A stretch of DNA of 64,000 nt from Cyclonatronum proteinivorum (GTDB lineage Bacteria; Bacteroidota; Rhodothermia; Balneolales; Cyclonatronaceae), in the NCBI RefSeq assembly GCF_003353065.1, contig NZ_CP027806.1:3182501-3246500 (forward strand), written 5' to 3'. The position numbers and the translations under genes were made by a program. Of the stretch, positions 5,345 to 37,957 are shown one piece after another. Positions within the stretch are counted from its first letter, which is position 1. The number at the start of each line of letters is the position of its first letter. The notes under the pieces were generated by a model that ran no database searches, was not told the DNA's origin, and saw only the letters and a program-made list of their open reading frames with translations.

Positions 5345-6640
5345 TCAAAGCCGCTTATCAACTGCTTCATCCGGTAGGAAGCCTTTGACGTCGTACACAA
5401 CCTTGTTGTCTGATTTGGTTACGTTCAGGCTGCGGAATTTGTCGTGACTTACGGCGAGGATGACGGCCGCGTACTGACTGAGGTCGGGTTCCTGCGTGTG
5501 CAGGATGTCGATGCCGTATTCGTGCTGCACCTCTTCCGGGTCGGCCCAGGGGTCGTACACGTCGACTTCCATGTCATAGGTTTTGAGCTCATGATAGATG
5601 TCGATGGCGCGTGTATTGCGGATGTCGGGGCAGTTTTCCTTGAAGGTGATACCGAGCAGCAGCACCTTGCTTTCGAGGACTTTGATGTCCTTGCGCATCA
5701 TGCACTTGATGACCTCGGTTGCCACGTACTTGCCCATGCTGTCGTTCATGCGGCGACCGGCAAGGATGATTTCCGGATGATAGCCGACTTCCTGCGCTTT
5801 CTGCGCAAGGTAGTAGGGGTCAACGCCAATGCAGTGTCCGCCTACGAGGCCGGGACGAAACGGCAGGAAGTTCCACTTGGTCCCCGCGGCCTCAAGCACG
5901 GCATAAGTATCGATATCAAGCAGATTGAAAATCTTGGCGAGCTCGTTCACAAAGGCGATGTTGATATCCCGCTGCGCATTTTCGATCACCTTGGCCGCTT
6001 CCGCAACTTTGATGGTCGGCGCAAGATGCGTACCGGCGGTAATAACTTCCCGGTACAGGGCATCAACAAAGGCACCGGCTTCGGGGGTTGAACCGGAGGT
6101 CACCTTCAGAATTTTAGTTACCGTGTGCTCCTTATCTCCCGGATTAATCCGCTCGGGGCTGTAGCCCACGAAAAAGTCTTCGTTAAATGTGAGTCCGGAC
6201 ACCTGCTCAAGCACCGGCACGCACTCATCCTCGGTCACGCCGGGATACACGGTTGATTCATAAATCACCACATCCCCCTTCTTCAGCACGGCACCGCAGG
6301 TCTCGGAAGCCTTGATGAGGGGCGTCAGTACGGGGCGATTGTGCTTGTCCGTTGGCGTAGGCACGGTCACGATGAAGACATTGCAGTCCTTCAGGTCTTC
6401 GGACTGCGTCGTATTGTGCAGGAAGTTTCCTTCGCCGGAAGCTGCGCCCCCTTTCAGGACGGACTGAAGGATGTCATCTTCCACCTCAAGGGTCCGGTCG
6501 GTGCCGCTGTTGAGTTCTTCAACGCGCTTGGTGTTAATATCAAACCCAACAGTCGGGTATTTTCTTGCGAATTCAACCGCAAGGGGAAGCCCCACATATC
6601 CGAGGCCGATGATGGCGATTTTAAGGTTGTCGAAAGTCAT
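5345..6640 (-). CDS. UDP-N-acetylhexosamine 6-dehydrogenase (TviB/WbpA-like nucleotide-sugar dehydrogenase)
   Basis: This 431-aa enzyme oxidises the C6 hydroxyl of a UDP-hexosamine to a carboxylate using two NAD+. It opens with the Rossmann motif KIAIIGLGYVGLPLAVEFA and carries the catalytic-cysteine segment LVGGHCIGVDPYYLA. The C-terminal domain has LLLGITFKENCPDIRNT. TFKENCPDIRN is characteristic of the TviB/WbpA/WbpO group acting on UDP-GlcNAc or UDP-GalNAc, rather than of UDP-glucose dehydrogenase. The start at 6640 is chosen because the Rossmann strand follows at once; the ORF is open upstream to 6754 but that extension has no family match. The gene is alone on its strand. It probably supplies a uronic-acid amino sugar to the polysaccharide locus at 15.8-39 kb, with which it shares a leader element (6711-6782). 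Confidence 0.92.
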   Translation of the reverse strand: MTFDNLKIAIIGLGYVGLPLAVEFARKYPTVGFDINTKRVEELNSGTDRTLEVEDDILQSVLKGGAASGEGNFLHNTTQSEDLKDCNVFIVTVPTPTDKHNRPVLTPLIKASETCGAVLKKGDVVIYESTVYPGVTEDECVPVLEQVSGLTFNEDFFVGYSPERINPGDKEHTVTKILKVTSGSTPEAGAFVDALYREVITAGTHLAPTIKVAEAAKVIENAQRDINIAFVNELAKIFNLLDIDTYAVLEAAGTKWNFLPFRPGLVGGHCIGVDPYYLAQKAQEVGYHPEIILAGRRMNDSMGKYVATEVIKCMMRKDIKVLESKVLLLGITFKENCPDIRNTRAIDIYHELKTYDMEVDVYDPWADPEEVQHEYGIDILHTQEPDLSQYAAVILAVSHDKFRSLNVTKSDNKVVYDVKGFLPDEAVDKRL

Positions 6641-7430
6641 TACGAATGAATAGGTGAGTATGGAGCACGAGGGACTAAGCATGTCCCCCAAAAAAAATTT
6701 ATGACTACTTCCTGACGCAGCTTCGCTATCGTGAGTCCCAAAACCGGGCTTCATGTGCAGGAAACGGCATTAAAAAAATCAGAAATACGCTCTGATCAGG
6801 ATGATGAAAAGGGCTTATTCCCCGGAAAAAAGACGGACGCCACCCGGGGATTTGGGGGGCTTGGGGTGGTATTGGGCAGCATTGTATGCCCATGCAAAGA
6901 GAAGCTGCCATTCGGGCAGGCCTCAAAAGCGGAACCAAATTTATGTTGCTGCATGACGGCTCGTCCGGACCTGTAGTCTGATTTTGTCATCATTGAAAGC
7001 GAAACAGGTAAACAGGGGAATGCAACGGCAAAACTGAATGCCTGATGAAGCGATAAATTCCGTTGGACTGCATGCCGAATTTAGTATTTGAAGAGATGTA
7101 ATAAGCCTGTAGCGGTTAAGTGAGCTAAGGCCTTTTTATCAATTCCAAATTAGTGAGTAAAAATCTTACTCACAAATCTTTTTACGGGTCAATGGTCTTC
7201 ACAGGGTGATTTTTTCGTCAAAACCTGATTTGAAGCACAAAACAGGAATGATATCAAATGTAAAATCAGACTGGAAGCGATTTTTTGGGGATTTGGGATG
7301 AGGTGGTTTGCGGCTGTGATTCTATTCCAAAAAACAAAAACGGGTCATCATGTATTGGTTGAGCGGAGGCGGAGGGGCAGTGATAGCGGAGGCGAAGGAA
7401 CTGGTGATTGGGTTTGGGAGGTGAACATCT
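6641..7430. other. Intergenic region upstream of the nucleotide-sugar dehydrogenase
   Basis: No convincing gene is seen. The part nearest the dehydrogenase holds the leader element described separately (6711-6782). Further right there is an A/T-rich stretch with ATTAGTGAGTAAAAATC around 7150. A similar GTGAGTAAGAATATTGCTC word occurs near 15010. From about 7430 the repeat block begins. Confidence 0.6.
6711..6782 (-). promoter_or_regulatory. Leader element shared with the polysaccharide operon, copy A
   Basis: Read on the minus strand, this segment matches 15423-15493 on the plus strand. The strongest part has two identical blocks: GGGACTCACGATAGCGAAGC extended to 22 bp, and TGAAGCCCGGTT. About 40 of 43 positions match in the core. 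Outer matches are CTGATTT at one end and GTCAGG at the other. It lies about 70-140 bp upstream of the dehydrogenase start and points toward that gene. CCC/GGG pairing inside AGTCCC...CCGGGCT can form a small hairpin. The nature of the element (promoter, leader RNA or antitermination site) is inferred. Confidence 0.6.
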
Positions 7431-14923: not shown

Positions 14924-15422
14924 AAAAGCTGCTGATAAATCATGCGGGTTAAAAACGCATTATAGCCGTTTGGGGCACAATGGTGCGGCTACCTGATTCT
15001 TAATATATGTTTGTGAGTAAGAATATTGCTCATTAAATTACCGACTTACCAATTTATCACCCAAAAAAATTCTTCAGCTTTCGTGATTCTCCGGATTTTA
15101 TGATTGCTAAGCCCCTGCACATGCGCCATAATCGAAAATTTTACTACGATTTATGACAATAATCAGACGGATATCAGCATGCATCTTATGTGATGCGGGG
15201 GATGAACAGAATCAGGATGAGGGGATTGAGGCATACATAAGCAAAATTGAAATAGGCATACGTCTGCTGCTCCGGAATGGCATTCGGATGATACAAAAAG
15301 TACCCTTCCATCTTTTCCAGGCGGCGCGACAGCTCCCCGTGATGACGGAATCTCACCTGATACCTGTGGAAAGGGTGCGTCTTTTTGCTGTCAGCAAAGC
15401 ATAGTCGGACATAATCAGAAAG

Positions 15423-15493
15423 CTGATTTCTTACTGCCTTTTAAACCATGTGAAGCCCGGTTACGGGACTCACGATAGCGAAGCTGTGTCAGG
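15423..15493 (+). promoter_or_regulatory. Leader element shared with the nucleotide-sugar dehydrogenase, copy B
   Basis: This is the plus-strand counterpart of 6711-6782. It holds CTGATTT, then TGAAGCCCGGTTACGGGACT, then CACGATAGCGAAGCTG and GTCAGG. It lies about 280-350 bp upstream of the first gene of the polysaccharide locus and points toward it, so it has the same orientation to its gene as copy A has to the dehydrogenase. ACGATAGCG loosely recalls the ops/JUMPstart core of enterobacterial capsule operons (GCGGTAGCG). That similarity is short and may be coincidental. Confidence 0.6.
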
Positions 15494-15769
15494 GTTACGG
15501 CACTTGTTTACAGCTTCGGGCAGTCGTTCGTGATGCGTATTTGTTGATATGTTTACCTGCAGCCTCAGAAACTTCAGCATGCGGTGCAGTCTGAAAGCTT
15601 TCAAATCTAAGCTACGGCTTTAGTAAACCTTGTTATGAGAAAAAATATCCCGGGAAACCCTGCACGGTAAAGCAGCTGATTAGTATGACCATAACAGCTT
15701 ATTTCTTACATGAAATTTGGACCGTTGAATGAAGTATAATCAATAAAAATGCACCCAAGTGTTATTTCT

Positions 15770-16816
15770 ATGAAAATTGCAATACATCAGAATAAAAAAG
15801 TTTATGATCACTCCACGCAATGGATGTATGAGTGGATCAGGTATTGTGAGGAAAATAAGCTTACTTATGAAATTGTGGATGCCTACGCCAACGGGTTTTT
15901 GGAGAAAATCCGCGGTTTCGATGTCTTTTTGTGGTCTTTTAGCAACTACTCCCTGCAGGATATGCAGTTTGCACGCAGCATCTTACATGCGGCATCCGAA
16001 GCCGGCGTGCGTGTTTTTCCCGATTTTAGTACGGGCTGGCATTTTGATGATAAAATTGCCGAATACTACTGGCTGCAGGCGGCGCATGCGCCGGTACCTG
16101 AATCGTGGGTGTTTTATACCCGGGAGGACGCGCTGCTGTGGGCTTCGCAGGAAGCCAACTGGCCGGTGGTTGCCAAGCTCAAAACCGGCTCCGGTTCCAA
16201 TAATGTTAAGATGATCCGCTCAGCCGGACAGGCGAAATCTTACATCAACCGCATGTTTTCCCGGGGGTTTCGGAATGTGCCCGGGGTGCTGTTCAAAACC
16301 GCCTCCAACGTTAAATCCTCGCGAAACTGGGAAACCGTTGTGAAACGCTTTAAGCGCATACCCGACTTTATTGGAACCTGGCAGCGGGCACGTATGCTGC
16401 CCAAAGAGCGGGGCTATGTGCTCTTTCAGGAGTTTATCCCCAATGATGGCTATGATCTGAAAGTGGCGGTCGTAGGTGACAAGCTTTCTTTTTTTGCCCG
16501 TCACATCCGCAAAGGTGATTTCAGGGCTTCCGGTGGTGCTGATTTCTACTATGACCAAAGCCTGATGACCGATCAGATTCGCGAAACCGCTTTTGAAGTT
16601 GCACAGCAGCTGCGCTTTCAGTCGATGGGATTTGACTTTGTGGTTGATAAGCAAACCGGACAGGGGAAAATCATCGAGATGAGCTACGGTTTTTCCTGGC
16701 AGGCCCTGCTTGGCGCGGGCGGCTACTGGGATCGTGAACATAACTGGCACGATGAACCGTTAAATGCGCCTGTAGAGGCGCTGAAGAACCTGATTCAGGC
16801 CGGAGATCAGGCGTGA
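15770..16816 (+). CDS. ATP-grasp family protein, first gene of the polysaccharide locus
   Basis: The 348-aa protein (from MKIAIHQNKK) has the ATP-grasp layout: an N-terminal pre-ATP-grasp fold, the ATP-binding strand-loop VVAKLKTGSGSNNVKMI (about 135-150), VLFQEFIPNDGYDLKVAVVGDKL (about 218-240), and the metal-binding end FDFVVDKQTGQGKIIEMSYGF. ATP-grasp enzymes ligate a carboxylate to an amine or thiol through an acyl-phosphate. In capsule loci such proteins may add amino acids to uronic acids, but the substrate here is unknown. The ORF is open seven codons upstream (ATG at 15749). MKIAIHQ is preferred because it starts the first beta strand. The gene overlaps the next by 4 bp (ATGA), so it opens the operon. 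Confidence 0.82.
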   Translation: MKIAIHQNKKVYDHSTQWMYEWIRYCEENKLTYEIVDAYANGFLEKIRGFDVFLWSFSNYSLQDMQFARSILHAASEAGVRVFPDFSTGWHFDDKIAEYYWLQAAHAPVPESWVFYTREDALLWASQEANWPVVAKLKTGSGSNNVKMIRSAGQAKSYINRMFSRGFRNVPGVLFKTASNVKSSRNWETVVKRFKRIPDFIGTWQRARMLPKERGYVLFQEFIPNDGYDLKVAVVGDKLSFFARHIRKGDFRASGGADFYYDQSLMTDQIRETAFEVAQQLRFQSMGFDFVVDKQTGQGKIIEMSYGFSWQALLGAGGYWDREHNWHDEPLNAPVEALKNLIQAGDQA

Positions 16817-17916
16817 AGATTGCGCTGCTCGGGGATCTGGCCTTCACCGGTGTCTATGATCTGACAACGCATGATGACGCGGCAGTGCGCCTGCAACCGC
16901 TTGCGGGCTATCTTTCAGGCTTTGACTGCGTGCTCGCCAACCTGGAAAGTCCGCTCACAGACCTGCGAACTACGCGCATGCCGAAGTCGATTCACCTCAA
17001 AAGTCCGGTACAGAATGTATCCCTGCTCAAGCAGCTGGGGGTCACAGCGGTGAGTCTGGCAAACAATCATATGTTTGACTTCGGCAAAAAAGGCTGTCAG
17101 CAAACCATTGCTGCCCTGGAGTCCGCAGGCATTGGCTGGTACGGACTGGGCGGGGAGCGTTTCCTTTTCACAGATCCGGTCAGCGGCAGTCGTATTTCCG
17201 CAAGCGGGTTTTGCTGTTTCACAACGCACGGTCTCGGATACGGTCCCGATGCAGGTAGCAGACCGGGAAAGATGGATGTACTGAGCCGGGCCAATCTGGA
17301 AAACCGCTTAAAAGCTGATGCGGCTGAAGGCGCCTTAAGCATACTGTCGGTACACTGGGGGAAAGAGCACACCAATTATCCCAACTTTGAACACCTGCAG
17401 CTTGCAAAGACGCTTATGGCGGAAGCCGAACGCCCTTTTGTGATTCATGGCCACCATCCGCACGTGCTGCAGGGTGTTCTGCGCCAACACGACAGCCTGT
17501 GTGCCTTCAGCCTGGGCAATGCGGTTTTTGGTGATGTGACCTCCCTTGACGGCAAGCGTGTGCTGCGCCAAAATGCTGAAAACCGAAAATCTGTCCTGTT
17601 GGAGCTGCATCTTGCGGAGGGCAGGCTGGTGCAGACCAAACTGACCGGCTACGAAGATCAGCCGGAGGGCATGCGTTTTACTGAAACCGTTGCGGATGAG
17701 GTGGAAAGCTATTCTGATTTTGACCGCCTGCCTGCAACCCCCGAAGCCTGGGAAGCCATGCGCCGGGCGCAGTATGAGCAGGTCATTCTGGAAAAATTTG
17801 GTGCCCGTACGTTTAGCTGGTACCTCAGTAAGCTGACCTATGACGCGCTGCTTAATAAGGTGCTCGCAGCATACCGGAAGTACAGATACCGGCGCCTGAG
17901 CCGCAGGACAGCGTAG
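16813..17916 (+). CDS. CapA family protein (metallophosphatase-like fold)
   Basis: This 367-aa protein has the PGA_cap/CapA signature: MKIALLGDLAFTG at the start, CVLANLESPLTD (about 39-50), VSLANNHMFDFGKKG (about 80-94), SVHWGKEHTNYP (about 178-189) and FVIHGHHPHVLQGV (about 213-226). These Asp, Asn and His residues form the metal site of calcineurin-like phosphoesterases. CapA proteins act in poly-gamma-glutamate capsule synthesis in Bacillus, and homologues are common in exopolysaccharide loci, where the reaction is unknown. It has no signal peptide, so it is probably cytoplasmic. It overlaps the ATP-grasp gene by 4 bp, and the two may work together on a peptide- or amino-acid-substituted sugar. 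Confidence 0.87.
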   Translation: MKIALLGDLAFTGVYDLTTHDDAAVRLQPLAGYLSGFDCVLANLESPLTDLRTTRMPKSIHLKSPVQNVSLLKQLGVTAVSLANNHMFDFGKKGCQQTIAALESAGIGWYGLGGERFLFTDPVSGSRISASGFCCFTTHGLGYGPDAGSRPGKMDVLSRANLENRLKADAAEGALSILSVHWGKEHTNYPNFEHLQLAKTLMAEAERPFVIHGHHPHVLQGVLRQHDSLCAFSLGNAVFGDVTSLDGKRVLRQNAENRKSVLLELHLAEGRLVQTKLTGYEDQPEGMRFTETVADEVESYSDFDRLPATPEAWEAMRRAQYEQVILEKFGARTFSWYLSKLTYDALLNKVLAAYRKYRYRRLSRRTA

Positions 17917-17987
17917 CCCAGCGCTTTGTTAGTGATGAACAGCCCGCTGTACGTGCACAGCCGGCATAGCAAGCAGCAGGCTGAAAG

Positions 17988-19481
17988 GTGACTAAAAAGG
18001 ATACACCCGCTTCATACGGGGAACCGGAATCCGGGCTAAAGCATAAAGCTGCCCGGGGAGGTGTTATCATGATGGGGTCAAAAGCCGTCATGATTGTCCT
18101 GCACCTCACCTTTACCATTGTTCTGGCGCGGCTGCTTACGCCTGAGGACTTCGGTATTGTTGCTATGGTTGCCGTGTTTACGGTTTTTGCTGAAATCCTG
18201 AAAGATGCGGGACTTTCAGCAGCCGCAATACAGCGTAAAACGCTGACGGAAGCACAGCAGTCAAACCTGTACTGGCTCAATCTGTTACTCGGCGGCCTCC
18301 TCACGCTGCTGGTTGCGGCCTCTGCACCGCTGATCGCATGGTTCTACGGGCGGCCCGAACTGATCGCAGTGACTTTAGCACTGTCTCTTAGTTTTACCAT
18401 CAATGCAGCTGCCGTACAGCACAGGGCGGCCCTGTCCCGGGCACTTCGTTTTGGTCCCAAAGCAGCAGCGGAAGCCGGTGGCATGGCACTAAAGCTGATC
18501 GTAGCTGTAATCCTGGCGCTTTACGGTTTCGGATACTGGGCGCTGGTCTGGGCTACGCTTGCAGGCCTGGTGATGGCTTCGCTGGTTGTTATACGCTACG
18601 CCCCGCTCCGCATCGGGCTTCCCCGTCGCGGAGCGGGCACACTCAGCTTTGTCCGTTTCGGGGCCAATGTTACGCTGTTTAATTTTGCGAACTACTTCCA
18701 CCGGAACCTGGACAATCTGCTGATCGGGCGGATAAGCGGCGCGGAGGCCCTTGGTCATTATTCGCAGGCCTATGCGCTGGTGATGTACCCTGTATCAGCC
18801 ATCAGGGCGCCGGTTAGCGCGGTTGCGCTGCCTGTTCTAAGCCGTCTTCAGGATAAGCCTGATCAGTTCAGGGCCTATTACCTGAACATGGTGCGGGTCA
18901 TCGGCATGCTATCGGTTCCGATCCTCATGTTTGCTGCAGTTAGCGGTGAAGTGCTGATTGCCCTGCTTCTGGGGCCGGGCTGGGAAAAGGCATCCGTTTT
19001 ATTTTCCATCCTGTGCCTCGCTGCAATCATTCAGCCGGCAGCAACCATGCGGGGGATGACCCTGCTGGCCCTGGGGAAATCGGGCCGTTATGCAAAATGG
19101 GGAAGCTGGCATGCCCTTGCGATGGCCTGTTTTTTTTGCATTGGTATCTGGTGGGGCGCCGAAGGCGTCGCCTGGGCCTATGTGGCGGGAACCTATCTCA
19201 TCCTGTATCCATCCCTGATGTACGTGTTTCGGGATACGCCGGTGCAGCCCTCCGGATTTATAAAAGCAATTTTGCCCGTTTTAAGTGTTAGCCTGGCGGC
19301 TGCAGGCCTGTTGGTTTTTATTCGCAGCTATGACTTTCTGCCTGAAGCGGACCTTTTAAGGACAGGCGCTGAACTGCTGATTTTTATGGCCATGGTATAC
19401 CCTGTTTTGCTCGCCTTTCGTCCGCAGGACCGCGCTTTTCTGCTGCAGATTATGGCACAGTTTTTTAGCCGTAAAGGATAA
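17988..19481 (+). CDS. Polysaccharide flippase (MOP/Wzx family), first copy
   Basis: A 497-aa integral membrane protein with many hydrophobic segments. It opens with GGVIMMGSKAVMIVLHLTFTIVLARLLTPEDFGIVAMV, the N-terminal signature of lipopolysaccharide/teichoic-acid flippases of the MOP superfamily (WzxC-like). The segments FNFANYFHRNLDNLLIGRISGAEALGHYSQAY and AVALPVLSRLQD are also typical. It would move undecaprenyl-linked repeat units across the inner membrane. It starts 71 bp after capA, and the nitroreductase-like gene follows after 5 bp. A second flippase lies at 34031-35305. The start listed is a GTG (17988). Confidence 0.9.
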   Translation: MTKKDTPASYGEPESGLKHKAARGGVIMMGSKAVMIVLHLTFTIVLARLLTPEDFGIVAMVAVFTVFAEILKDAGLSAAAIQRKTLTEAQQSNLYWLNLLLGGLLTLLVAASAPLIAWFYGRPELIAVTLALSLSFTINAAAVQHRAALSRALRFGPKAAAEAGGMALKLIVAVILALYGFGYWALVWATLAGLVMASLVVIRYAPLRIGLPRRGAGTLSFVRFGANVTLFNFANYFHRNLDNLLIGRISGAEALGHYSQAYALVMYPVSAIRAPVSAVALPVLSRLQDKPDQFRAYYLNMVRVIGMLSVPILMFAAVSGEVLIALLLGPGWEKASVLFSILCLAAIIQPAATMRGMTLLALGKSGRYAKWGSWHALAMACFFCIGIWWGAEGVAWAYVAGTYLILYPSLMYVFRDTPVQPSGFIKAILPVLSVSLAAAGLLVFIRSYDFLPEADLLRTGAELLIFMAMVYPVLLAFRPQDRAFLLQIMAQFFSRKG

Positions 19482-19486
19482 TTCCA

Positions 19487-20533
19487 TTGATAGTACGCCT
19501 GCTCAGACCCTTGTTCAAAACCGTTGACCGTTTCCTGATCAGATGGTGCAGCCGCAGCCTGATCGGATCAAGGCTGTACTACACTTTTTTCAGTAACGCC
19601 TTTGCCGCACAGCAGCAAGCTGTACTGAAAGGGCGGGCGACTTTCAATACGCCCGAAACCATTGGCAGGCTGCACTCAAGCGCAAACCTGAGGCGAAATA
19701 TTCACCGCCTCGAAAAAGGTCTTGCGATGAAAGGGCGGCGGGAAGTGTTTGCAGCTTCCTACATTCAGCAGACGGTCCGGGAATACAAGGAATATGCGGC
19801 TGCCGGCTTTGAAACCGCTGAAAGGCTCTGGGCGCAGGAAGTCCTTGATACCTATTTTGAGGCAGTCTCTCACAGCGATCCCGTGGCGCAGGCGTTTGCC
19901 CTGTACCGGACAGTGCTCCGCACCGAAGCCGGACACCGCACCTTTTCTTTTAATCCGCAGTGTGCGCCCTACGCCTTTGAGGTGATTCGTGACGCGGAAG
20001 TCTCTTTCGAAGACTTTCAGCAGCTGTGCGAAAAGCGAAGGTCTGTACGCTGGTTTCTGCCCCGCAGTGTTCCGGATGAAGCGGTACAAAAGCTTGTATC
20101 AACCGCCCTTTTGGCGCCTTCAGCCTGTAACCGACAGCCCTTTCGGTTTATCTGTGCACGCGAGCGCGCAGCTGCAGTTGCGGCCTGTGCGGCAGGCACA
20201 ACAGGATATGTTCATCAGCTGCCGGCGGTTTTGGTCGTTGCGGGCGACTATGCCAACTACGGACATGAGCGGGATAAGAACCTGATATATATTGATGCTT
20301 CCCTTGCTGCCATGCAGCTTATGCTGGCGGCCCCAACGCTGGGACTTGCAAGCTGCCCGATCAACTGGGCCGAGGATCCGGCCGCCGAATCGCGTATCCG
20401 CAAGCTTATTGATTTGAAAGATTCTGAGCGGATTATCATGCTGATAGCGCTCGGTTACCCTGAGCCCGGGGGCATGATTCCCTATTCCCAAAAAAAACAA
20501 GCGGCTCAGGTATTAACGTATGCAGACGACTGA
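19487..20533 (+). CDS. Nitroreductase-family flavoprotein in the polysaccharide operon
   Basis: The C-terminal half of this 348-aa protein is a nitroreductase-like domain: CEKRRSVRWF (about 182-191), LLAPSACNRQPFRFIC (about 207-222), and DASLAAMQLMLAAPTLGLASCPINW (about 265-289). These match the FMN-binding pattern. The N-terminal 170 residues carry NIHRLEKGLAMKGRREVF, a segment seen in nitroreductase-like proteins of capsule clusters. The substrate is unknown; oxidation or reduction of a sugar precursor is a guess. The start is a TTG five bp after the flippase stop, and no ATG is available near the N-terminus. Confidence 0.85.
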   Translation: MIVRLLRPLFKTVDRFLIRWCSRSLIGSRLYYTFFSNAFAAQQQAVLKGRATFNTPETIGRLHSSANLRRNIHRLEKGLAMKGRREVFAASYIQQTVREYKEYAAAGFETAERLWAQEVLDTYFEAVSHSDPVAQAFALYRTVLRTEAGHRTFSFNPQCAPYAFEVIRDAEVSFEDFQQLCEKRRSVRWFLPRSVPDEAVQKLVSTALLAPSACNRQPFRFICARERAAAVAACAAGTTGYVHQLPAVLVVAGDYANYGHERDKNLIYIDASLAAMQLMLAAPTLGLASCPINWAEDPAAESRIRKLIDLKDSERIIMLIALGYPEPGGMIPYSQKKQAAQVLTYADD

Positions 20534-20548
20534 GCAACAATAAAAGCT

Positions 20549-21724
20549 GTGCAAACCCCACTCCTCATAGAAATCAGAGGGGCTAACTTTATGAACAAAG
20601 GAGCTCAGCTGATGCTGATTGAAACCGTGCGTCAGCTGGGTAAGCGTATCCCGGACGCGGGATTTTGCGCTCCTATGCCCTTTCGCAGGCGGGCGGCTGA
20701 CCTGCCCCGATTTCGTGCGCTGGGGATGGGGGTGATACCCTTCCTGTCCAAGTGGAAGTTCCGTGCCGAAATTCCGGGGGTGTTTTTGTCTGTGCTTTCA
20801 GGCAAGGATGTAATGCATACGCGCAGGAAAGTTGCGCTGATAGCAGATATTTCCGGCTATGCGCTAAGCGACAAATGGGGCATATTACCGGCAAAGCGGC
20901 TTGGAAAAGCTGCGAAAGCGGTAATCAGCAGAGGGGGGCAGTTGCTGCTGTTGCCACAGGCGCTGGGACCTTTTGAAGATGAAAAGGTTCGGCGCGCCTG
21001 TCTCAGGGTGTTTGAGCAGGCCGGGCTCATCATGCCCCGCGACGCGGTTTCTGAGGCTGCTTTGCGAGCACTGTTTCCGCAATCGGATAAAATCCGGCCC
21101 TATCCTGATTTTACCGCCCTGGCAGAAGCCGTTCATGATCCCGCCTATTCATCGTATGCCGGCGGCTTTTGTATTGTGCCCAACTGCCGCATGCTGGATA
21201 AAGTCCCGCCCGCAGAAGCTGCGCATTATCTTGGATTTCTGCAGCAGAGCATAGCCGCAGCTCAGGCGCTGGCATGCAGACCGTTTTTTCTGATTCATGA
21301 AGGGGAGGGAGACCGGCGCATTGCGGAACAGCTCAATGCGGGTCTGGCACAGCCGCTGGATATTGTAGCACACAGCGATCCGCGGGTACTGAAAGGCGTT
21401 TTGGGGCAGAGCTATGCCGTTGTCTCAAGCCGGTACCATGCTGTTATCGGTGCACTGAGTCAGGGCGTGCCCTGCCTGAGCACTTCCTGGAGCCACAAAT
21501 ATGAGGCCCTTGCCGAAGCTTACGGCTGTCCGGAGCTGGTACTGCGCAGCTTTGCCGATGAAACCCTCAACCGGGATGCCCTGAGACGGATCAGCGACAG
21601 CGATTCAAACAAAGCCTACCGGCAGCAATTACTGCCAAGGGCTGATGCTGTAAAACAGCAGGCCGTGCAGATGTGGGATGAAGCAGCCCGATGGATTTTG
21701 GATAGCCTGAAACAAAAAAACTGA
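20549..21724 (+). CDS. Polysaccharide pyruvyl transferase family protein
   Basis: This 391-aa protein starts with a GTG and shows the PF04230 pattern: IRGANFMNKGAQLMLIETV at the N-terminus (family NxGAxAM...), LLLLPQALGPFED (about 131-143), AGLIMPRDAVSE (about 155-166), and the C-terminal SSRYHAVIGALSQGVPCLSTSWSHKYEAL (about 292-320). The family transfers a ketal pyruvate from phosphoenolpyruvate to a sugar, adding negative charge to the polymer; some members are glycosyltransferase-like. It lies 15 bp after the nitroreductase gene and abuts the next gene without a gap. Confidence 0.88.
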   Translation: MQTPLLIEIRGANFMNKGAQLMLIETVRQLGKRIPDAGFCAPMPFRRRAADLPRFRALGMGVIPFLSKWKFRAEIPGVFLSVLSGKDVMHTRRKVALIADISGYALSDKWGILPAKRLGKAAKAVISRGGQLLLLPQALGPFEDEKVRRACLRVFEQAGLIMPRDAVSEAALRALFPQSDKIRPYPDFTALAEAVHDPAYSSYAGGFCIVPNCRMLDKVPPAEAAHYLGFLQQSIAAAQALACRPFFLIHEGEGDRRIAEQLNAGLAQPLDIVAHSDPRVLKGVLGQSYAVVSSRYHAVIGALSQGVPCLSTSWSHKYEALAEAYGCPELVLRSFADETLNRDALRRISDSDSNKAYRQQLLPRADAVKQQAVQMWDEAARWILDSLKQKN

Positions 21725-22663
21725 ATGACAAGAGCGCAGCTGTACATTGCGGTAATGTCCTATGAAATGGGCATTTTACTCCGAAACTGTCTTACATCAA
21801 TAGAGAAACATGCACCGGGTATCGCGCTCGCTATTTATGATGACGGGAGCCGCGGTCCGGAAACCAAAGAAGTATTGGATGAATATGCTTCCAAAATCCC
21901 GGTTTATGTTAATAACTGGCGGGACGGGCAGAGCGCAGATCCCCTTGGCGGGCATATAAAAGTTGGCGGGCTGTGGACAAATATGCAGCGCGCCTTCAGG
22001 CATGCGCGGGCTGCGGGATTTTCCTACATTATGTTTGTGCAGGATGATATGCAGGTTGTCGGTCCGCTGGACGATACTTTTTTTGCTGAACACCGTGCGA
22101 TATGGGCCGACCGGCCTGATATTGTGCAAATCAGGATTAGCTACTACCGCAATCCGCTGGTTGACCCGACCCATGATCCTGTCAGGAACCGCATTTGCGC
22201 CAGCGGACGCTACTACATGGCTGAGCCTGTGCCGCAGGGGCTGAACGCAACCGGTATTGTTTCCATCGACCGTTTGCACCGTGCCGGCTACGCCTGGGAA
22301 AAAGGCGAGCATCTGAACAACCGGAAATCCGCAGCGCAGGGCATGTACAGCGTTTTTCCCAAAACGCCCCTCATTCCGCAGCTGCCGTATCCTCCGGTTG
22401 TTAAGGATCGTTTGCCCCGCTTTAAGCGATGGCTCAACCATATCTCTGATATGATCTTCCTGGTGGGCTTTCATCCATATGCTGATCTCAGCCCGGCACA
22501 AATCAGCGCACTGCGTAATCGTGACCCGGAGGAGCGGCCTGTAGGGGAAGTCTTTCTTACACCGCGTAAGCCCGTCAAACTGTACCGGCCCTGGTGCTAT
22601 GAAAACTCGTACGCCCATCTGATGGTTGCTTTTAAACGCGCTTTTTCATCCGCTAAACCTTAA
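21725..22663 (+). CDS. Glycosyltransferase (GT-A fold, family 2-like)
   Basis: The 312-aa protein begins with IAVMSYEMGILLRNCLTSI and has AIYDDGSRGPETKEVL (about 37-52), typical of the nucleotide-sugar binding part of GT2 enzymes. FVQDDMQVVGP (about 107-117) supplies the metal-binding acidic motif, and ATGIVSIDRL lies in the acceptor part. No membrane segment is evident. It probably adds one sugar to the lipid-linked repeat unit on the cytoplasmic side. It starts directly at the stop codon of the pyruvyl transferase gene. The 243-bp gap after it holds no convincing gene. Confidence 0.78.
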   Translation: MTRAQLYIAVMSYEMGILLRNCLTSIEKHAPGIALAIYDDGSRGPETKEVLDEYASKIPVYVNNWRDGQSADPLGGHIKVGGLWTNMQRAFRHARAAGFSYIMFVQDDMQVVGPLDDTFFAEHRAIWADRPDIVQIRISYYRNPLVDPTHDPVRNRICASGRYYMAEPVPQGLNATGIVSIDRLHRAGYAWEKGEHLNNRKSAAQGMYSVFPKTPLIPQLPYPPVVKDRLPRFKRWLNHISDMIFLVGFHPYADLSPAQISALRNRDPEERPVGEVFLTPRKPVKLYRPWCYENSYAHLMVAFKRAFSSAKP

Positions 22664-22906
22664 TTCGCCGTATTCATAGCTACCCCAAACCTGTTGCGTA
22701 TTTCACTTTTGATATCGTCCTTTCATAAAAAAGCAGACCGCTTCCGCTTACTTAGAGCGCGTGCATTGCAGTCTGCTTCGGCTGACTGTGCTCAGACGGT
22801 TAAAGCCTGTGCCTGGTATGCAGGTATGCTGTTACCGATTGCCTCAGCTTCGCACTGTCAACCGCAACCGCTGATGCTGCCCAAGGCGGTATAGAAGATT
22901 GTTTTT

Positions 22907-24037
22907 TTGAAAAAAATCTACCTCACCACAGATTACGAGATATTCGGCAACGGCAGCGGCTGTATTGAGCGCTGTGTGACCGCGCCGGCTGCGCAGATGA
23001 TGAAGGTTGCGGAGCGGCATGGAGCCCGTATGACGTTTTTTGTGGATGTGCTTGAATTTATAGCCTTTGAAAAAGCCCTGGAACAAGGGTTCTGCAGCGC
23101 CAATATAGCTGCTGTTGCTCAGGTGCGCGAACAGCTGCAGGAAGCTGTCAGCCGGGGTCATGATGTGCAGCTGCATTTGCATCCGCAATGGCTGGATGCG
23201 GCCTGGTGTCCGGAAAAGGGCTGGCAGCTCAACATGGCGTACTGGCGCATTGGCGGGCTTGATCAAAAAATCGGCTACACCCGCCTCGCCGAAATGGTAC
23301 AGCAGGCAACCGACTGGCTCAATGGTCTGCTCAAAACAGCAGATGCAGGCTACGCATGCCGGTCGTTTCGGGCCGGGGCCTGGTGTATTCAGCCGGAAGA
23401 AGCGGTGCTGCGTGCGCTCCGGCAGGCCGGTATTTTTCTGGATACGACCGTAGCACCCGGCAGCCGCACGGCCGGTGAACTAACCTTTTTTGATTTCACG
23501 GAGGCTCCGGCAGATCAGTGGCGCGGCTGGCCTGTTGCAGACACCGTTACCCGTCCTGAAGCGGAAGGCGCAATGTACGAGCTACCCATTTTTACAGCGA
23601 TTCTGCCTTTTCGGCTGCGTGCCCTGAAAAAGCTGAGCCGCCATCCGGTTTTGGCTCCTCAAGGTTGTATAGGTGACTTTGTTGGTGAGCGGCAGCCCCA
23701 AAAAAAAGGATCTGTCCAAAGGGCGGTGAACATGGCTTTGGGTGTCCTCCAAAACAAGGCTACCCAGTTTGACTTTTGCTCGCTCAGCCGCGCGGAAACC
23801 GATTTTATGCTGGCAAAGGCCGCAGCTGTCCGCTCTGCCGGTTCCGGCATCGTGCCCATTGTCACGATCTCGCATCCGAAAGCTTTCGGAAATCCGGAGC
23901 AGCTGGCCTACCTGCTGCGCGCGGCTGAAACCTACGATACGATTACGCTCGACCGTACGGATGAGCCTTCGCTTTGGCGGTCCGCAAGCCTGCGGGAACT
24001 TCATCAAAATACCGGATATGCTGCTGCGTCACATTAA
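22907..24037 (+). CDS. Polysaccharide deacetylase-like protein (WalW-type)
   Basis: This 376-aa protein begins MKKIYLTTDYEIFGNGSGC. TTDYE supplies the Asp of a NodB-type site and GHDVQLHLHPQWLD (about 83-96) the paired histidines. CRSFRAGAWCIQPEE (about 153-167) matches the RxGxW motif of polysaccharide deacetylases. The family removes N- or O-acetyl groups from glycans; the non-secreted WalW-type members in surface-polysaccharide loci are of unknown substrate. No signal peptide is seen, so it may act on a lipid-linked intermediate. The start is a TTG. The gene overlaps the heparinase-like gene by 20 bp. Confidence 0.82.
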   Translation: MKKIYLTTDYEIFGNGSGCIERCVTAPAAQMMKVAERHGARMTFFVDVLEFIAFEKALEQGFCSANIAAVAQVREQLQEAVSRGHDVQLHLHPQWLDAAWCPEKGWQLNMAYWRIGGLDQKIGYTRLAEMVQQATDWLNGLLKTADAGYACRSFRAGAWCIQPEEAVLRALRQAGIFLDTTVAPGSRTAGELTFFDFTEAPADQWRGWPVADTVTRPEAEGAMYELPIFTAILPFRLRALKKLSRHPVLAPQGCIGDFVGERQPQKKGSVQRAVNMALGVLQNKATQFDFCSLSRAETDFMLAKAAAVRSAGSGIVPIVTISHPKAFGNPEQLAYLLRAAETYDTITLDRTDEPSLWRSASLRELHQNTGYAAASH

Positions 24038-26084
24038 GCGCGCCATTGCGCATCCGACGGACTTACTTCGGGTACTGATGCGGGAGAAGCACAAACGCAT
24101 AGGCCATCTGCGCTGCAGCTACACCGTGCTGCCTGGCCGAAGCGCTGAAACGCTGCTGGGAGAAAATCCCCTTCAGAACGTCACATTGCCTGAATCGACG
24201 GTTCCGAAAGCCTATACTCAGGCCCTTATACAGCATCAGTTCACTATTTTGGGCAGCGGGACGCAGCAACAGCGGTACGGTATGCCCTGTCAGGGTTTTG
24301 AAGACTTTCAGTATGAAAGCGCCGCGGATATTCCTTCGCCGGAAATGCAGGTAAATCCAAGCAACCGGAAACGCGCTGCTTATGTGCGGCAGCTGATTGC
24401 GGATGATACCTACGAGCCCATTGACTGGCAGCTTGATTTCCGCAGCGGCTACCGGTGGCGCGCGTCACAAAATGCCAAGACCATACCGATTGTAAGCGGA
24501 AAAGGCTACGATATCAAAGTGCCCTGGGAACTGGCACGGCTGCAGCATTTGCCGGCTATGCTGCTTCAGGACGCCCCCGACAAGCTGAAAAGCAGACAGG
24601 AAGCGGTACATCAGCTGCTGGATTTTATTGCCGCCAACCCACCCGGATTCGGCGTCAACTGGGTTTCTACGATGGATGTTGCCATTCGGGCAGCCAATAT
24701 GGTGCTTAGCCTGTGGCTTATCGAAAAAGACGGAACGCTTCTCCCGGAGCCAGTCCGGAAAGTGATCGCCTGCTCCCTTGTTGATCACGGCAAGTGGGTC
24801 AAAGCCTTCCCGCTGCTGCAAAAAGGACGCGGGAACAATCACCTGCTGTCTGACTATGCCGGGATGGCTTTTATTGCACGGGCGCTGCACGGCTATGCAG
24901 CTGCGCCGAAGTGGCAGCAATGGGCGCTGGAAGGACTGCTGACACACTGCGGCTATCAGTTTAACGCAGACGGGTCCAATTTTGAAGGTTCTGTCAATTA
25001 TCACCGGCTTTCCACGGAAATTGTGGTGTGGGGGCTTGCGGCGCTTTCTCCCCGCATGGTGCACACCGACACCCGCTTTACCGGCCTGGTTTCCAAACTG
25101 GCCCGGGCCTCAGAGATTCTTCGTACGCTAAGGCGGCCCGATGGCTGCCTGCCTTCGTTTGGAGAAACCGACAGCGGACGCTTCTTCAACCTGAATCCCC
25201 GGCTGGTTGCCTTAGACCGGGAGACGACCTCCGGTGTGCTGCTGAAACCGCAGATGCAGGATTTTATGTCGGACACACAGTGGCTTGAGGCCAAAAATGA
25301 TCCGGCGGAAACCCTTGCGGTCAGTGAAGCCCTGCTGTTCGGATACCGGCAGGGGCCTGCTGCTGCGATCATAGCCGCCCTTATGCAGAGCGAAGCTCTT
25401 CTTCCGGATCAAAAAGCGTGCTACGCCGGATTTGAAACTGTTTCTCCTGTAGAAGAATCATCGGCGGAACCGCTCCCGCTCTACCCGCAGCAGGAATGGA
25501 AAATCAGCGAAGACTGCACCGGTACGGCCCTGAGCTGCGTGAAGTGCAGCGGGCTTGGACTTATCCTGATACGGGGGCGGGATCTTTGGCTGCTCGTACG
25601 GCTGCCTATGCAAAGCCCCGAGGCCATGGTGCATCAGGAATATGATGCGCTTGCCTTCGAGCTCTGGGCTGAGGGCGAGCTCCTTGTTCCGGAACCCGGA
25701 ACCTATGTATATACCCCGCATCCCTCCCTCCGTAAGCAGTACAAATCCGCTGCTGCACACGGATTGCCTCCTTTTGATGTGTCTGATGACGCGGCGCTTT
25801 GGGATAAAGGAGGCAACATCAGGCGGCGGCAGACAGGGCATTTCAGATGGGAGCAGCGGGCGGAGGAGATTCGTCTGTACCTTGACCTGCCTGAAGCGCC
25901 CGGGCTTACGCCGCCTCTGCAGCGATGCTTTCGTTTCACCGAAGGCACACTACAGGTATCCGGAAGCTGGGAAACCGGCGCGAAGACGGAAGCTGCAACG
26001 CCTGCCCGGGCTTACGGCGAGCTGGCCAAAGCCACCAAATGGCTTGATTTCCGGCAGCTTGAAAAGCTGTCCCGCGCGTACTGA
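24018..26084 (+). CDS. Heparinase II/III family protein
   Basis: The protein is 688 aa from MLLRHIKRAIAHPTDLLRVL. The frame is open further upstream, but that part lies inside the deacetylase gene and has no protein character, so the ATG at 24018 is chosen. The N-terminal alpha/alpha toroid has WRASQNAKTIPIVSGKGYDIKVPWELARLQHL-like sequence and GRGNNHLLSDYAGMAFI, with NADGSNFEGSVNYHRLSTEIVVWGL after it (about 315-340). The C-terminal beta-sandwich contains ALSCVKCSGLGLILIRGRDLWLLV and MVHQEYDALAFELWAEGELLVPEPGTYVY (heparinase C-domain). Enzymes of this fold cleave uronic-acid polysaccharides by elimination. In capsule loci they may edit or release the polymer. No signal peptide is apparent. 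Confidence 0.87.
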   Translation: MLLRHIKRAIAHPTDLLRVLMREKHKRIGHLRCSYTVLPGRSAETLLGENPLQNVTLPESTVPKAYTQALIQHQFTILGSGTQQQRYGMPCQGFEDFQYESAADIPSPEMQVNPSNRKRAAYVRQLIADDTYEPIDWQLDFRSGYRWRASQNAKTIPIVSGKGYDIKVPWELARLQHLPAMLLQDAPDKLKSRQEAVHQLLDFIAANPPGFGVNWVSTMDVAIRAANMVLSLWLIEKDGTLLPEPVRKVIACSLVDHGKWVKAFPLLQKGRGNNHLLSDYAGMAFIARALHGYAAAPKWQQWALEGLLTHCGYQFNADGSNFEGSVNYHRLSTEIVVWGLAALSPRMVHTDTRFTGLVSKLARASEILRTLRRPDGCLPSFGETDSGRFFNLNPRLVALDRETTSGVLLKPQMQDFMSDTQWLEAKNDPAETLAVSEALLFGYRQGPAAAIIAALMQSEALLPDQKACYAGFETVSPVEESSAEPLPLYPQQEWKISEDCTGTALSCVKCSGLGLILIRGRDLWLLVRLPMQSPEAMVHQEYDALAFELWAEGELLVPEPGTYVYTPHPSLRKQYKSAAAHGLPPFDVSDDAALWDKGGNIRRRQTGHFRWEQRAEEIRLYLDLPEAPGLTPPLQRCFRFTEGTLQVSGSWETGAKTEAATPARAYGELAKATKWLDFRQLEKLSRAY

Positions 26085-26457
26085 GGCGGTATGCAGAAGG
26101 CATACTTTTCAGCTTTGGGAAGTAGGATCCGCCTGAACCGTCCTGCTCCCAATCGAACGGATGTTCTTTTGTTATTACCTGGCTGATATTCGTAGTTTAG
26201 CGGGCAGGTCTGAACGTCACAAAACGAGGGTATGAAGTGCCTCCAACACGCATCCCGGACTTCATGCTCATCTGCTTCTGTCAGTACCAAATAAGGATGC
26301 GAATCATCAGGATACTCATCTTAGGTACCTTACTTTTCGGCCTTTATTTGGCACCATTGCTTTGGTTCATGCGGTATCATTTGCTCTGCACGAATATTCT
26401 GCTGTCACTCAACGCTCATTTTTATAATAATCCCTATCTACGGCACTGATAAGCTGC
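26085..26457. other. 373-bp gap inside the polysaccharide locus
   Basis: No convincing gene. A short frame near 26237-26449 contains a hydrophobic stretch but has no recognisable family and lacks support. The gap may separate two transcription units of the locus. Confidence 0.45.
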
Positions 26458-27585
26458 ATGCGTACATCTACGATTAAAATGGTGATTATCACCAAAAACC
26501 TTGATACCGATGACCGGCTTATCAAAGAGGTTGAAACGATTGGGGCTCCGTCGGGGGATACCCGCGTGCTTGCGGTGGAGCGCGACCATCCGAAAGGGCG
26601 CAAGGGAGTGCTTGGTTCCGGTGCTGCCTTTCACAGCTGCAGCGACACTTTTCGTCCGCTGTTCCGGCCCGGTCGCGGCATTGTCTTCAAAGCAGGGGAG
26701 ACCCTTCTGAAATTTATGGTCCGCGATATTACGGACCGCCGGGATGTGCTCTGGATCCATGATCCGGCTTTGCTGCCGTATGTGCAGTGGGCGCTGCTGC
26801 TCCGGAAAGCCGGATGGGTGAAGAAAGTCATCTGGGATTTGCACGAGCTGCCGCCTGCGTCGCGGCTGCAGGGCCGCTGGATTGAGGTCACTCGGAAGGT
26901 ATTGCAGCAGCTGGATGTGGTTGTGGTAACCAATGCCTGGCGTCTGTCCTATATAGAAGAAAAATTGGGGGTTTCGCTGCCGCATGCCGTCATCCTGGAG
27001 AATTATCCTTCCCGGTGTGCCATAGAAAAACCTGTTGAGGCGCTGCCGGAAACGCTCAGCGACTGGCTGAAGGGCCGGGCGTATTTCATCCTGCAGGGCG
27101 GGGCGAGCGCTGACCGGCACTACCCGACCGTCGTAAAAGCCTGCATGGAGATGAATCTGCCGGTCGTTGTGGTAGGCAAGCCGGGTGAGGTTTACGATGA
27201 GAACCTGATATACAATACCGGCTGGATACCGCAGGAAGACGTCTATACCTATATTGATCACGCCGCGGGCAGCCTCATTTTTTATGATCAGCGTGACCCC
27301 AATGCCTGGTACTGCTCCCCCAACCGATTGTTTCAGGCCATTGGCAGAGGGTGCCCCGTGCTTACGGGGAATAATCCGCCTCTTAAGTCAGTAGTGGAAG
27401 AAAGCGGGGCCGGGGTAGCCGCTGATACGGACGGTGCTGATACTGCTGCGGTAAAGCAGGCGATCACGCAGTTTTTGAAGGCTCAGGAAACCTACAGACA
27501 GCGGGCTGCAGCATCCCGGCACAGGTATATATGGGAAGGGCAGACGCAAAAGCTCTCCGAACAGCTTGCAGGGCTTCGGGGCTAA
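26458..27585 (+). CDS. Glycosyltransferase (GT-B fold, family 4-like)
   Basis: A 375-aa protein with an N-terminal Rossmann-like strand (KMVIITKNLDTDDRLIKEV), VLWIHDPALLPYVQWALLLR and KVIWDLHELPP (about 122-132), typical of GT-B sugar transferases. The C-terminal domain has GRAYFILQGGASADRHYPTVVKAC and YCSPNRLFQAIGRGCPVLTG (about 289-308), which replaces the usual E-x7-E motif by SPNRLFQAIGRG as in several GT4-like enzymes. An alternative start lies seven codons in (MVIITK). It is followed after 20 bp by the polymerase-like gene. Confidence 0.78.
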   Translation: MRTSTIKMVIITKNLDTDDRLIKEVETIGAPSGDTRVLAVERDHPKGRKGVLGSGAAFHSCSDTFRPLFRPGRGIVFKAGETLLKFMVRDITDRRDVLWIHDPALLPYVQWALLLRKAGWVKKVIWDLHELPPASRLQGRWIEVTRKVLQQLDVVVVTNAWRLSYIEEKLGVSLPHAVILENYPSRCAIEKPVEALPETLSDWLKGRAYFILQGGASADRHYPTVVKACMEMNLPVVVVGKPGEVYDENLIYNTGWIPQEDVYTYIDHAAGSLIFYDQRDPNAWYCSPNRLFQAIGRGCPVLTGNNPPLKSVVEESGAGVAADTDGADTAAVKQAITQFLKAQETYRQRAAASRHRYIWEGQTQKLSEQLAGLRG

Positions 27586-27605
27586 TTTTTCAATCATAAT
27601 TTTTT

Positions 27606-28754
27606 ATGTCTAACCGGTATCGCAGCTTTAGCCTGCTGATCATTCTGATAACAGCCTTTTCGCTACGGGCTGTATTCAGTTTCATCAATGTTTTTTACGT
27701 GACCCTGCCACAGGGCGGGGCCGATGCACAGCGGTTCAACCGCATGGCGCTGGAAGTACTTGAAAACATGGATATGCTTACCCTCGAATTCTTCCTCACC
27801 GGGGGGACCAATGCCATCGTTTCTGTAGGGGCGGTTTTGTACAGCATCACGAGCCCGTCTATGTTTGTGATGGGCCTGTTTATGTCGGTACTGGGTACGC
27901 TTGTAGTTTATTATGTGTACAAGCTGGTTAAGGAAGTGACCGGCTCGAAAGGGGCGGGTTTGTCGGCAGCCGCCTTTACGGCGGTCTTCCCGCAGCTTAT
28001 TCTGCATTCAGCCCTGTTTTTGCGGGAAACGCCGGTAAACCTGGCTTTCCTGCTTGCCGTCTATTATGCGGTTCTCTACCTCAAACGCGGCTCTGTCATA
28101 AACCTCACCACTTCTTTCTTTGCCGCGCTGATCGCCATCATTTTTCACTCCGGCGTGGTTTCCTTCTTTATTGCCATCGTGCTGTACATATTTTTGTACC
28201 GTACGAAGGGGATAAAGCATGCCTGGATCAAAAACAGCTTTATCCTGCTGGTTACCCTTGGGTTTTTATTCTACCTCAACACAACCGGACTCGGGCTGCG
28301 CAATTTTGAAGGGGATCTGACCAATGTGGCAACGCAGTTTGAAGAACGGGAGCAACAGGGGGGCTACGGTGAATCGGCTTATCCTGAATGGTTGCGGTAT
28401 CAGGGAGAAGGCGGTGAGCTCTGGAAGTTGCCGCTGCGGGTTGTTGCTTTTGTGCTTTCCCCTGTCTTCCCCTATCACTTTTCGGAGCTGATTCACCTCT
28501 TAGGCTTTCTGGATGCCTTTCTGTACCTCTACCTGTTCGGATATCTTTTTGTGAACCGAAAAATCATACCCCGCAATCAGTCCTTGTATTTCATAGTGAT
28601 TGTCGTGCTGGTGTTTTATGTGTTTTTTTCGTTTGGGGTTTCCAATGCGGGTACCGCTATCCGGCACCGGGCAAAAGCAGCGCCCCTGCTTATCGCTGCG
28701 GTTTATATGGTCAGGTTTGCGAAAAAATTGCTCAGAAAACGGCGCACTACCTGA
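27606..28754 (+). CDS. Multi-membrane-span protein, candidate polysaccharide polymerase (Wzy-like)
   Basis: The 382-aa protein has about nine to eleven hydrophobic segments (for example LLIILITAFSLRAVFSF, MFVMGLFMSVLGTLVVYYVY, FFAALIAIIFHSGVVSFFIAIVLYIFLY, FIVIVVLVFYVFFSFGV). A large loop near 245-290 contains REQQGGYGESAYPEWLRY. This topology fits O-antigen/capsule polymerases (Wzy/EpsG-like) or GT-C-type transferases; sequence conservation in these groups is too low for certainty. A flippase-type locus needs a Wzy, and no other candidate is present in the locus. Confidence 0.65.
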   Translation: MSNRYRSFSLLIILITAFSLRAVFSFINVFYVTLPQGGADAQRFNRMALEVLENMDMLTLEFFLTGGTNAIVSVGAVLYSITSPSMFVMGLFMSVLGTLVVYYVYKLVKEVTGSKGAGLSAAAFTAVFPQLILHSALFLRETPVNLAFLLAVYYAVLYLKRGSVINLTTSFFAALIAIIFHSGVVSFFIAIVLYIFLYRTKGIKHAWIKNSFILLVTLGFLFYLNTTGLGLRNFEGDLTNVATQFEEREQQGGYGESAYPEWLRYQGEGGELWKLPLRVVAFVLSPVFPYHFSELIHLLGFLDAFLYLYLFGYLFVNRKIIPRNQSLYFIVIVVLVFYVFFSFGVSNAGTAIRHRAKAAPLLIAAVYMVRFAKKLLRKRRTT

Positions 28755-28805
28755 TGTTCAGATACCTTCGCCGCAATTTCCGGGGAATGACTTCCGCTTT
28801 TAGCC

Positions 28806-29939: not shown

Positions 29940-30012
29940 AATCTTCAAAAATCTCTATTGTTTCATCCCTCGTATGCGCCTTATTAACGCCTGCTTTCTC
30001 AGGCCGTAGCTG

Positions 30013-31140: not shown

Positions 31141-31146
31141 AAGCAG

Positions 31147-31938
31147 ATGGAATTTACGTTCGAAGCCTACGAAACCGCCTTAAAAACCGCCTTATCCCGT
31201 TTTGAGCATATCCTCACGGCCATAGCCTTTGTATCGGCTGATGCCGGTGCGCTCGAAAACCGCAGCGTACTGATTCTCCGGCACGACTGTGAACGCGATC
31301 TCCGGAAAGCCCTTCGTATGGCTGAACTCGAGCAACGTTTGGGGATTTGTGCGACCTACTACATTCGGGTACACAGCGAATACTATAACCTGATGCAAGC
31401 GGAAGAACGGCAGCTTTTGCGGCAAATCGCTGACATGGGGCATGAAGTGAGCTTACACTACGAGCCGCAGTTTTATCACGGGGAACATCAGTCACTGATT
31501 GAAGGCATTGAGCGGGACCGCGCCGTACTCCGGGATATTCTGGGTCCGGACGCTGCACTTACAACCATGTCACCCCATCAGCCGACCCTGCGGACGCCCG
31601 ACTTTGAAGCGCTGGCGCGCAGCGGCATTGTGGATGTTTATACACATCCAAGGTTCAAAGACCTGTCCTACTATTCCGACAGCGGCATGAAGTGGCGGGA
31701 GAAAACGCTGCAGCAGGCGGCAGAAACGGAAGTACGGTGTCAGTTTCTCATTCATCCGGATTTCTGGAATACGGTGCACACCGACTGGTTCACCAATCTG
31801 GATCAGCGGGTGGAGGCCTGTATCGGGGCGCTTCAGCAAACAGCTGCACACGAAAAGGAAGTCTGCCGGAACTACCTGAAAAACCGGGCAGCGCATGACG
31901 CAGCCTTTAAAAGTAAGGTTGGAGCAAGCCGGGCATGA
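31147..31938 (+). CDS. Polysaccharide deacetylase-like protein (short type)
   Basis: The 263-aa protein carries SVLILRHDCERDLRKALRMAELE (about 40-62), in which RHDCE replaces the usual metal-binding TFDDG. GHEVSLHYEPQFYHG (about 98-112) supplies a single conserved histidine, and LTTMSPHQPTLRTPDFEAL follows. Such proteins occur in many O-antigen/capsule loci and resemble NodB deacetylases by fold, but their reaction is unproven. Its gene overlaps the formyltransferase-like gene by 4 bp, suggesting the two modify the same sugar. Confidence 0.75.
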   Translation: MEFTFEAYETALKTALSRFEHILTAIAFVSADAGALENRSVLILRHDCERDLRKALRMAELEQRLGICATYYIRVHSEYYNLMQAEERQLLRQIADMGHEVSLHYEPQFYHGEHQSLIEGIERDRAVLRDILGPDAALTTMSPHQPTLRTPDFEALARSGIVDVYTHPRFKDLSYYSDSGMKWREKTLQQAAETEVRCQFLIHPDFWNTVHTDWFTNLDQRVEACIGALQQTAAHEKEVCRNYLKNRAAHDAAFKSKVGASRA

Positions 31939-32861: not shown

Positions 32862-32865
32862 CAGG

Positions 32866-37952: not shown

Positions 37953-37957
37953 CGCCC

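Follow-up and report, generated by a model that had tools for sequence, protein, structure and literature searches.

What could connect a nucleotide-sugar dehydrogenase gene with a distant polysaccharide operon in Cyclonatronum proteinivorum? In the window, i.e. the whole stretch of 64,000 nucleotides analysed here, both units are preceded by the same short element. We consider it likely that this element is a loading site for an antiterminator of the UpxY family that resembles the ops site of Escherichia coli, although all evidence is comparative and no binding, pausing or antitermination data are available.

Copies of the element and their surroundings

The original prediction, made from the sequence alone, had described a shared segment of about 70 bp, with a core matching at 40 of 43 positions, in the same orientation relative to the following gene. 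Both copies and their positions were confirmed (Table 1), and each lies on the strand of the next gene. The 43-bp core is identical at 40 of 43 positions (0 matches in 100 shuffles), and the longer alignment covers 72 bp at 82% identity (blastn, E 2e-15); the upstream flank CTGATTTNTTANTGCC is common to both copies. At up to three mismatches, the core occurred only at these two sites in the whole 4.29-Mb genome (labelled G000 in our genome comparison). A third, diverged copy was identified 2.4 Mb away at G000:C1:752965, so that a search for further copies, which had been proposed as a check, yielded one more. With three copies in 4.29 Mb, the element is not a REP-like dispersed repeat with many copies at unrelated sites in this genome, the outcome that would have spoken against the original prediction. 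The expectation that all copies precede envelope-polysaccharide genes failed for the third copy. It precedes an integron cassette array, and the element therefore marks long polycistronic units, not polysaccharide genes alone.

The CCC/GGG hairpin noted in the original prediction is not a conserved feature. Comparison across copies revealed GGGACTCAC and AGCGAAGCT-GTG as the conserved parts, and the conserved heart, TGKGACTSA-N-RGCGNAGCY-GTG, recurs across Bacteroidota. The block TGKGACT is located 5-6 bp further upstream of an ops-like 12-mer. Covariance-model scores were 50.8 bits (R1) and 44.1 bits (R2) for copy 1 and 52.7 bits (R1) and 47.4 bits (R2) for copy 2.

Table 1. Positions in the window of the element, its conserved parts and associated features
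Feature	Position	Strand	Remark
Element copy 1	6711..6782	(-)	core 6711-6753; NDP-sugar dehydrogenase starts ~70 bp further downstream
Element copy 2	15423..15493	(+)	core 15451-15493; first polysaccharide operon gene follows ~255 bp downstream
Copy 1, ops-like 12-mer AGCGAAGCTGCG	6716..6727	(-)	putative mini-hairpin AGC-GAA-GCT; pause-like GCG replaces the usual GTG
Copy 1, upstream block TGGGACT	6734..6740	(-)	conserved part
Copy 2, ops-like 12-mer AGCGAAGCTGTG	15477..15488	(+)	basis: sequence and consensus
Copy 2, upstream block CGGGACT	15464..15470	(+)	conserved part
TviB-like nucleotide-sugar dehydrogenase	5345..6640	(-)	proposed control by copy 1
Co-directional polysaccharide gene run	15749..39301	(+)	proposed control by copy 2
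Palindrome, candidate operator	7147..7176	(-)	~400 bp upstream of copy 1
Palindrome, candidate operator	15010..15039	(+)	~400 bp upstream of copy 2

The mechanical open reading frame of the dehydrogenase (5345-6754) opens at an in-frame ATG inside copy 1. A protein-coding reading of the element was nevertheless rejected, because copy 2 has ATGTGA at this place and the dehydrogenase start supported by homologues is 6640; automatic gene callers may possibly place this start too early. The polysaccharide run contains ATP-grasp, PGA_cap, Wzx-type flippase and pyruvyl transferase genes, the rest being known merely as open reading frames, and its extent as an operon was inferred from gene direction and is not proven.

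A shared part absent from the original prediction is the palindrome (TTTGTGAGTAAGATTTTTACTCACTAA type, 27-30 bp) upstream of each copy, which is found within G000 at these two sites alone. One weaker version is present in a polysaccharide locus of a congener (L119:1500-1525), upstream of a gene for a winged-HTH regulator. The palindrome is possibly the operator for that regulator family; no homologue of the congener's regulator was detected within the 64-kb window.

Distribution in Bacteroidota and link with NusG paralogues

The covariance analysis recovered the element family across relatives. At the order level, 36 of 126 genomes were matched with the first model and 42 of 126 with the refined one, and at the phylum level 113 of 392 Bacteroidota genomes (E<=0.01). 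A scan of 80 dehydrogenase loci from other Bacteroidota showed that the core precedes this gene in Algoriphagus, Litoribacter, Arenibacter and a Flavobacteriaceae MAG, and gave no match in shuffled sequence. The covariance model added Flavobacterium, Echinicola, Cyclobacterium, Saprospiraceae and a Chlorobiaceae MAG. All matches at E<0.2 in loci of tviB-type dehydrogenases (18/18) lay on the dehydrogenase strand, mostly upstream of this gene. Weak matches in the congeners G004 and G005 and in G083 (L004, L007, L098) were set aside as chance because they fall in coding-like sequence, with L098 reading as a TPR-type gene.

Genomes with the element mostly carry one or a few copies, positioned on the coding strand ahead of genes for polysaccharide export, dehydrogenases or chain-length determination. 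About 29 of 37 genome-wide matches precede an open reading frame for a polysaccharide, export, dehydrogenase, winged-HTH or NusG-like protein. This count was restricted to the first downstream frame of at least 100 aa and rests on Pfam/NCBIfam for most proteins, five Wzc/Wzz-like proteins and the winged-HTH proteins having been assigned by reading the sequence. Among the first downstream genes are dehydrogenases, SLBB/Poly_export, Wzc/Wzz-like, RmlA and FkbM genes, a winged-HTH regulator and UpxY itself. Other matches are followed by a transposase, a LacI regulator, HEPN/MNT toxin-antitoxin genes or unknowns, among others. Some copies precede other genes, in particular the multi-copy ones in G186 and G443. 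In G186 (L184-L191), at least 14 copies were observed in a repeated unit of ~520 bp, beside small and defence-like genes.

In congener G005, a weak palindrome match led to a polysaccharide locus carrying a homologue of the element between the genes for the winged-HTH regulator and a UDP-sugar dehydrogenase, thus keeping the order palindrome, regulator, element, dehydrogenase. A winged-HTH regulator of ~170-200 aa was seen to adjoin the element in many polysaccharide loci, namely L140, L142, L143, L145, L146, L148, L174, L175, L208 and L215; it had no Pfam match in the two loci tested (L140, L142), and the G005 protein has an apparent NTase-like tail.

The distribution of the element follows that of additional NusG-family genes. 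At least two such genes were present in 111 of the 113 element-positive genomes of the phylum and in 86 of 279 element-negative ones (Fisher p 7e-40). A second NusG-family gene was likewise found in 37/42 versus 10/84 genomes of the order (p 2e-17) and in 14/17 versus 1/75 Balneolaceae (p 8e-13). One of the two exceptions, G071, showed a paralogue-type NusG match only, presumably because its canonical gene escaped detection. Of the 195 genomes that have no more than one NusG-family gene, only 2 were matched, which gives an internal false-positive estimate of ~1%. The Fisher tests were not corrected for phylogeny, and it is possible that polysaccharide-rich genomes tend to carry both the element and an extra NusG gene. 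The phylum-wide count concerns extra NusG-family genes; a check against the UpxY cut-off is reported for G000, where the paralogue scored 137 bits for UpxY (NCBIfam cut-off 100) and 86 bits for RfaH (cut-off 144.5), so that by this test there is no cognate RfaH.

Linkage points in the same direction. In sixteen Balneolales genomes, element and paralogue gene share a strand and are 0.5-1.3 kb apart; the element comes first in 6 of them and directly after the gene in the other 10. This placement of upxY beside a target leader does not apply to G000, whose single UpxY-family gene lies near G000:C1 1,988,453, unlinked to the element copies and between a DnaJ-type and an isocitrate-dehydrogenase-like gene; the congeners likewise have a single paralogue outside their polysaccharide loci. 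The comparison thus shows that the element is conserved, in which orientation and gene contexts it occurs, and that it co-occurs and is linked with UpxY-type genes, and neither co-occurrence nor linkage depends on the refinement of the model.

An ops-like layout, its proposed role and other explanations

The original prediction had called part of the segment vaguely similar to the ops core. The 12-mer has the ops layout, which we regard as shown. In E. coli ops, GGCGGTAGCGTG, C3 and G8 close a hairpin in the non-template strand, and pausing is due to the TG dinucleotide at positions 11-12 (PMC5995543); the 12-mer has a C-loop-G hairpin arrangement and the terminal TG dinucleotide at the same positions, which agrees with the layout of a consensus pause. 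The element consensus, GGCGAAGCTGTG, is identical to ops at 7 of 12 positions and does not qualify as ops by sequence. It does meet the ops trait of lying on the coding strand ahead of long operons. The 76 aligned copies read R-GCG-N-AGC-Y-G-T-R, with A, G or T as the loop base (consensus in percent: G83 G C G N A G C T83 G75 T91 G63). The invariance of GCGNAGC in these copies was partly selected by pattern and model, the latter having been refined on its own matches.

Formation of the hairpin is inferred. C-G-closed GNA triloops are known as unusually stable DNA mini-hairpins, but this stability was not reproduced for all copies by the energy model used, and the computed DNA folding of isolated 12-15-mers was weak for several of them. 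Covariation beyond the two invariant base pairs was marginal, and RfaH residues contacting the bases are seemingly not kept in the UpxY protein, as judged by eye.

The enterobacterial pair of ops (the core of JUMPstart) and RfaH shares with our element the GGCG start, the layout of a C-loop-G mini-hairpin on the coding (non-template) strand, the terminal GTG with the pause dinucleotide, an identical GG...GTG register, the position in leaders of long polysaccharide operons and one unlinked NusG paralogue, which in our case would act in trans. In contrast, the loop consists of three bases (GNA) instead of four (GGTA), the 3' arm is offset by one position, and our element differs further in the additional block TGKGACTSA, in a protein of the UpxY family instead of RfaH and in its occurrence in Bacteroidota. 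The element was therefore not filed as ops, since sequence and protein family differ. Closer in protein family (NF033644) is the UpxY/UpxZ capsule system of Bacteroides (Chatzidaki-Livanis 2009/2010), which also acts at 5' leaders of polysaccharide operons. There, however, many locus-specific UpxYs are encoded in cis together with UpxZ inhibitors, whereas here one unlinked paralogue is combined with one shared consensus, which occurs at integrons too. LoaP of Bacillota, likewise a specialised NusG paralogue, also relies on a signal in the leader of long biosynthetic operons, but this signal is a different one, an RNA hairpin, in another phylum.

Bacteroides UpxY is reported to read the paused polymerase via the non-template strand and upstream duplex DNA (Saba et al. 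2024, doi 10.1038/s41467-024-55215-9), which is partly confirmed by the citation of upstream-duplex recognition in PMC12691694. The two conserved blocks of the element fit this mode of recognition, and we therefore read it as an UpxY loading site working like ops. RNA polymerase would pause at the 12-mer (R)GCGNAGC(Y)GTG within the transcribed leader, and the exposed non-template strand would fold into a GC-GNA-GC mini-hairpin. This would be recognised by the UpxY-family paralogue, probably together with the block TGKGACTSA, of which TGKGACT would sit in duplex DNA behind the bubble. The bound paralogue would keep the polymerase processive along the long operon, including integron cassette arrays. 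As a single unlinked UpxY-family gene would serve all three sites of G000 in trans, the polysaccharide operon would be switched on together with the distant dehydrogenase. The upstream palindromes may add control of initiation by a DNA-binding regulator, which is a guess. Pausing, protein binding, antitermination and co-regulation are all inferred from comparative evidence.

Other explanations of the element have to be considered. A structured leader RNA, i.e. a riboswitch or protein-binding hairpin serving as a post-transcription attenuator without any NusG paralogue, is in line with the folding of copy 2 as RNA into two hairpins (z -2.3) and with the paired cells and the covariation score, both of which beat nearly all shuffles (7/500 and 2/500, respectively). 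However, an Rfam search with the element found no described RNA family, for copy 2 not even at E 10; the 5' hairpin is kept in a few genomes only; and two of the three inner pairs never vary and hence provide no test. As the tight link with UpxY-type genes would also be left unexplained, we regard this explanation as unlikely. We are similarly doubtful about a promoter or transcription-factor operator common to polysaccharide units. The palindrome and the common flank upstream of both copies speak for it, but element and palindrome are spaced ~400 bp apart and the element alone is widespread. The promoter-only reading was rejected, since the 12-mer has a direction and is found again inside apparent operons, immediately behind upxY.

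Least convincing is the view that a mobile element or an integron end left the element behind as a relic, copied to these places without a regulatory role. In G000 (third copy) and in six further genomes of the Balneolales, the element does lie beside intI or its remains, and the repeated unit in G186 is compatible with such an origin. Beyond genus-level relatives, however, the copies share the short element alone, which precedes polysaccharide genes in distant genera and tracks UpxY-type genes; with only three copies in G000, a generic repeat or mobile end was rejected. The original prediction had proposed a common cis-regulator, either promoter, leader RNA or loading site for a NusG paralogue. 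This is supported, and the loading site is strongly favoured because of the recurrence before polysaccharide genes in distant genera, the co-occurrence and linkage with UpxY and the ops layout of the 12-mer.

In Bacteroides, it is already known that transcribed DNA recruits UpxY; to our knowledge, the signal has not been worked out beyond this genus. No prior description of a Bacteroidota ops was found in the literature searched, which did not include Saba et al. 2024. A consensus valid across the phylum, a layout with an unlinked paralogue as for RfaH, and the connection with integrons appear to be new. If the UpxY loading site is confirmed, a searchable consensus would mark likely targets of UpxY-type antiterminators across Bacteroidota, the operons controlled by a given paralogue would become predictable, and the element would show that the ops design was either reached by convergence or inherited from a common ancestor.

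Integron copies and further observations at the locus

The third G000 copy (C1:752950-753004, L096:7951-8005) is situated where a truncated integron integrase gene ends. A congener that has lost the integrase carries a copy next to the same attI-like sequence (L097:4131-4185). In five more Balneolales genomes the element is located 8-250 bp past the intI 3' end, directed through intI toward the cassettes. The arrangement thus occurs in seven genomes (G000, G003, G007, G010, G109, G110, G125; intI lost in G003), with the element antisense through intI at the associated loci (L096, L097, L204, L205, L206, L207, L209, L210). In G110, three near-identical attC-like hairpins separate cassettes of the toxin-antitoxin type. 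A strict attC pattern search found none, and the counts of a relaxed one failed to tell arrays from controls; attC sites were accordingly called from the near-identical arms at the boundaries of cassettes.

How distal cassette genes of integrons are expressed is a long-standing puzzle. A bolder reading, for and against which we see equally good grounds, is that Balneolales integrons took up an ops-like site at the intI 3' end, directed toward attI, and that an UpxY-type factor drives termination-resistant transcription of promoterless cassettes, the same factor running capsule-type operons and the cassette pool. If true, processive antitermination would be tied to integron cassette expression, a combination for which no earlier report was found in the literature searched.

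Between copies 1 and 2, a 719-aa open reading frame (window 12465-14624) has weak similarity to prokaryotic Argonaute (E 1e-5) and is flanked by direct repeats of 158 bp (12158-12315 and 14765-14922); related sequence is present at L112:7053-7159. Frame and repeats resemble a mobile module, which remains a mere possibility. A GC-rich repeat of 181 nt containing GGGCACCCCTCTCGAGAGGGG is present four times at 7432-8857 of the window, and one piece of it also occurs in L097.
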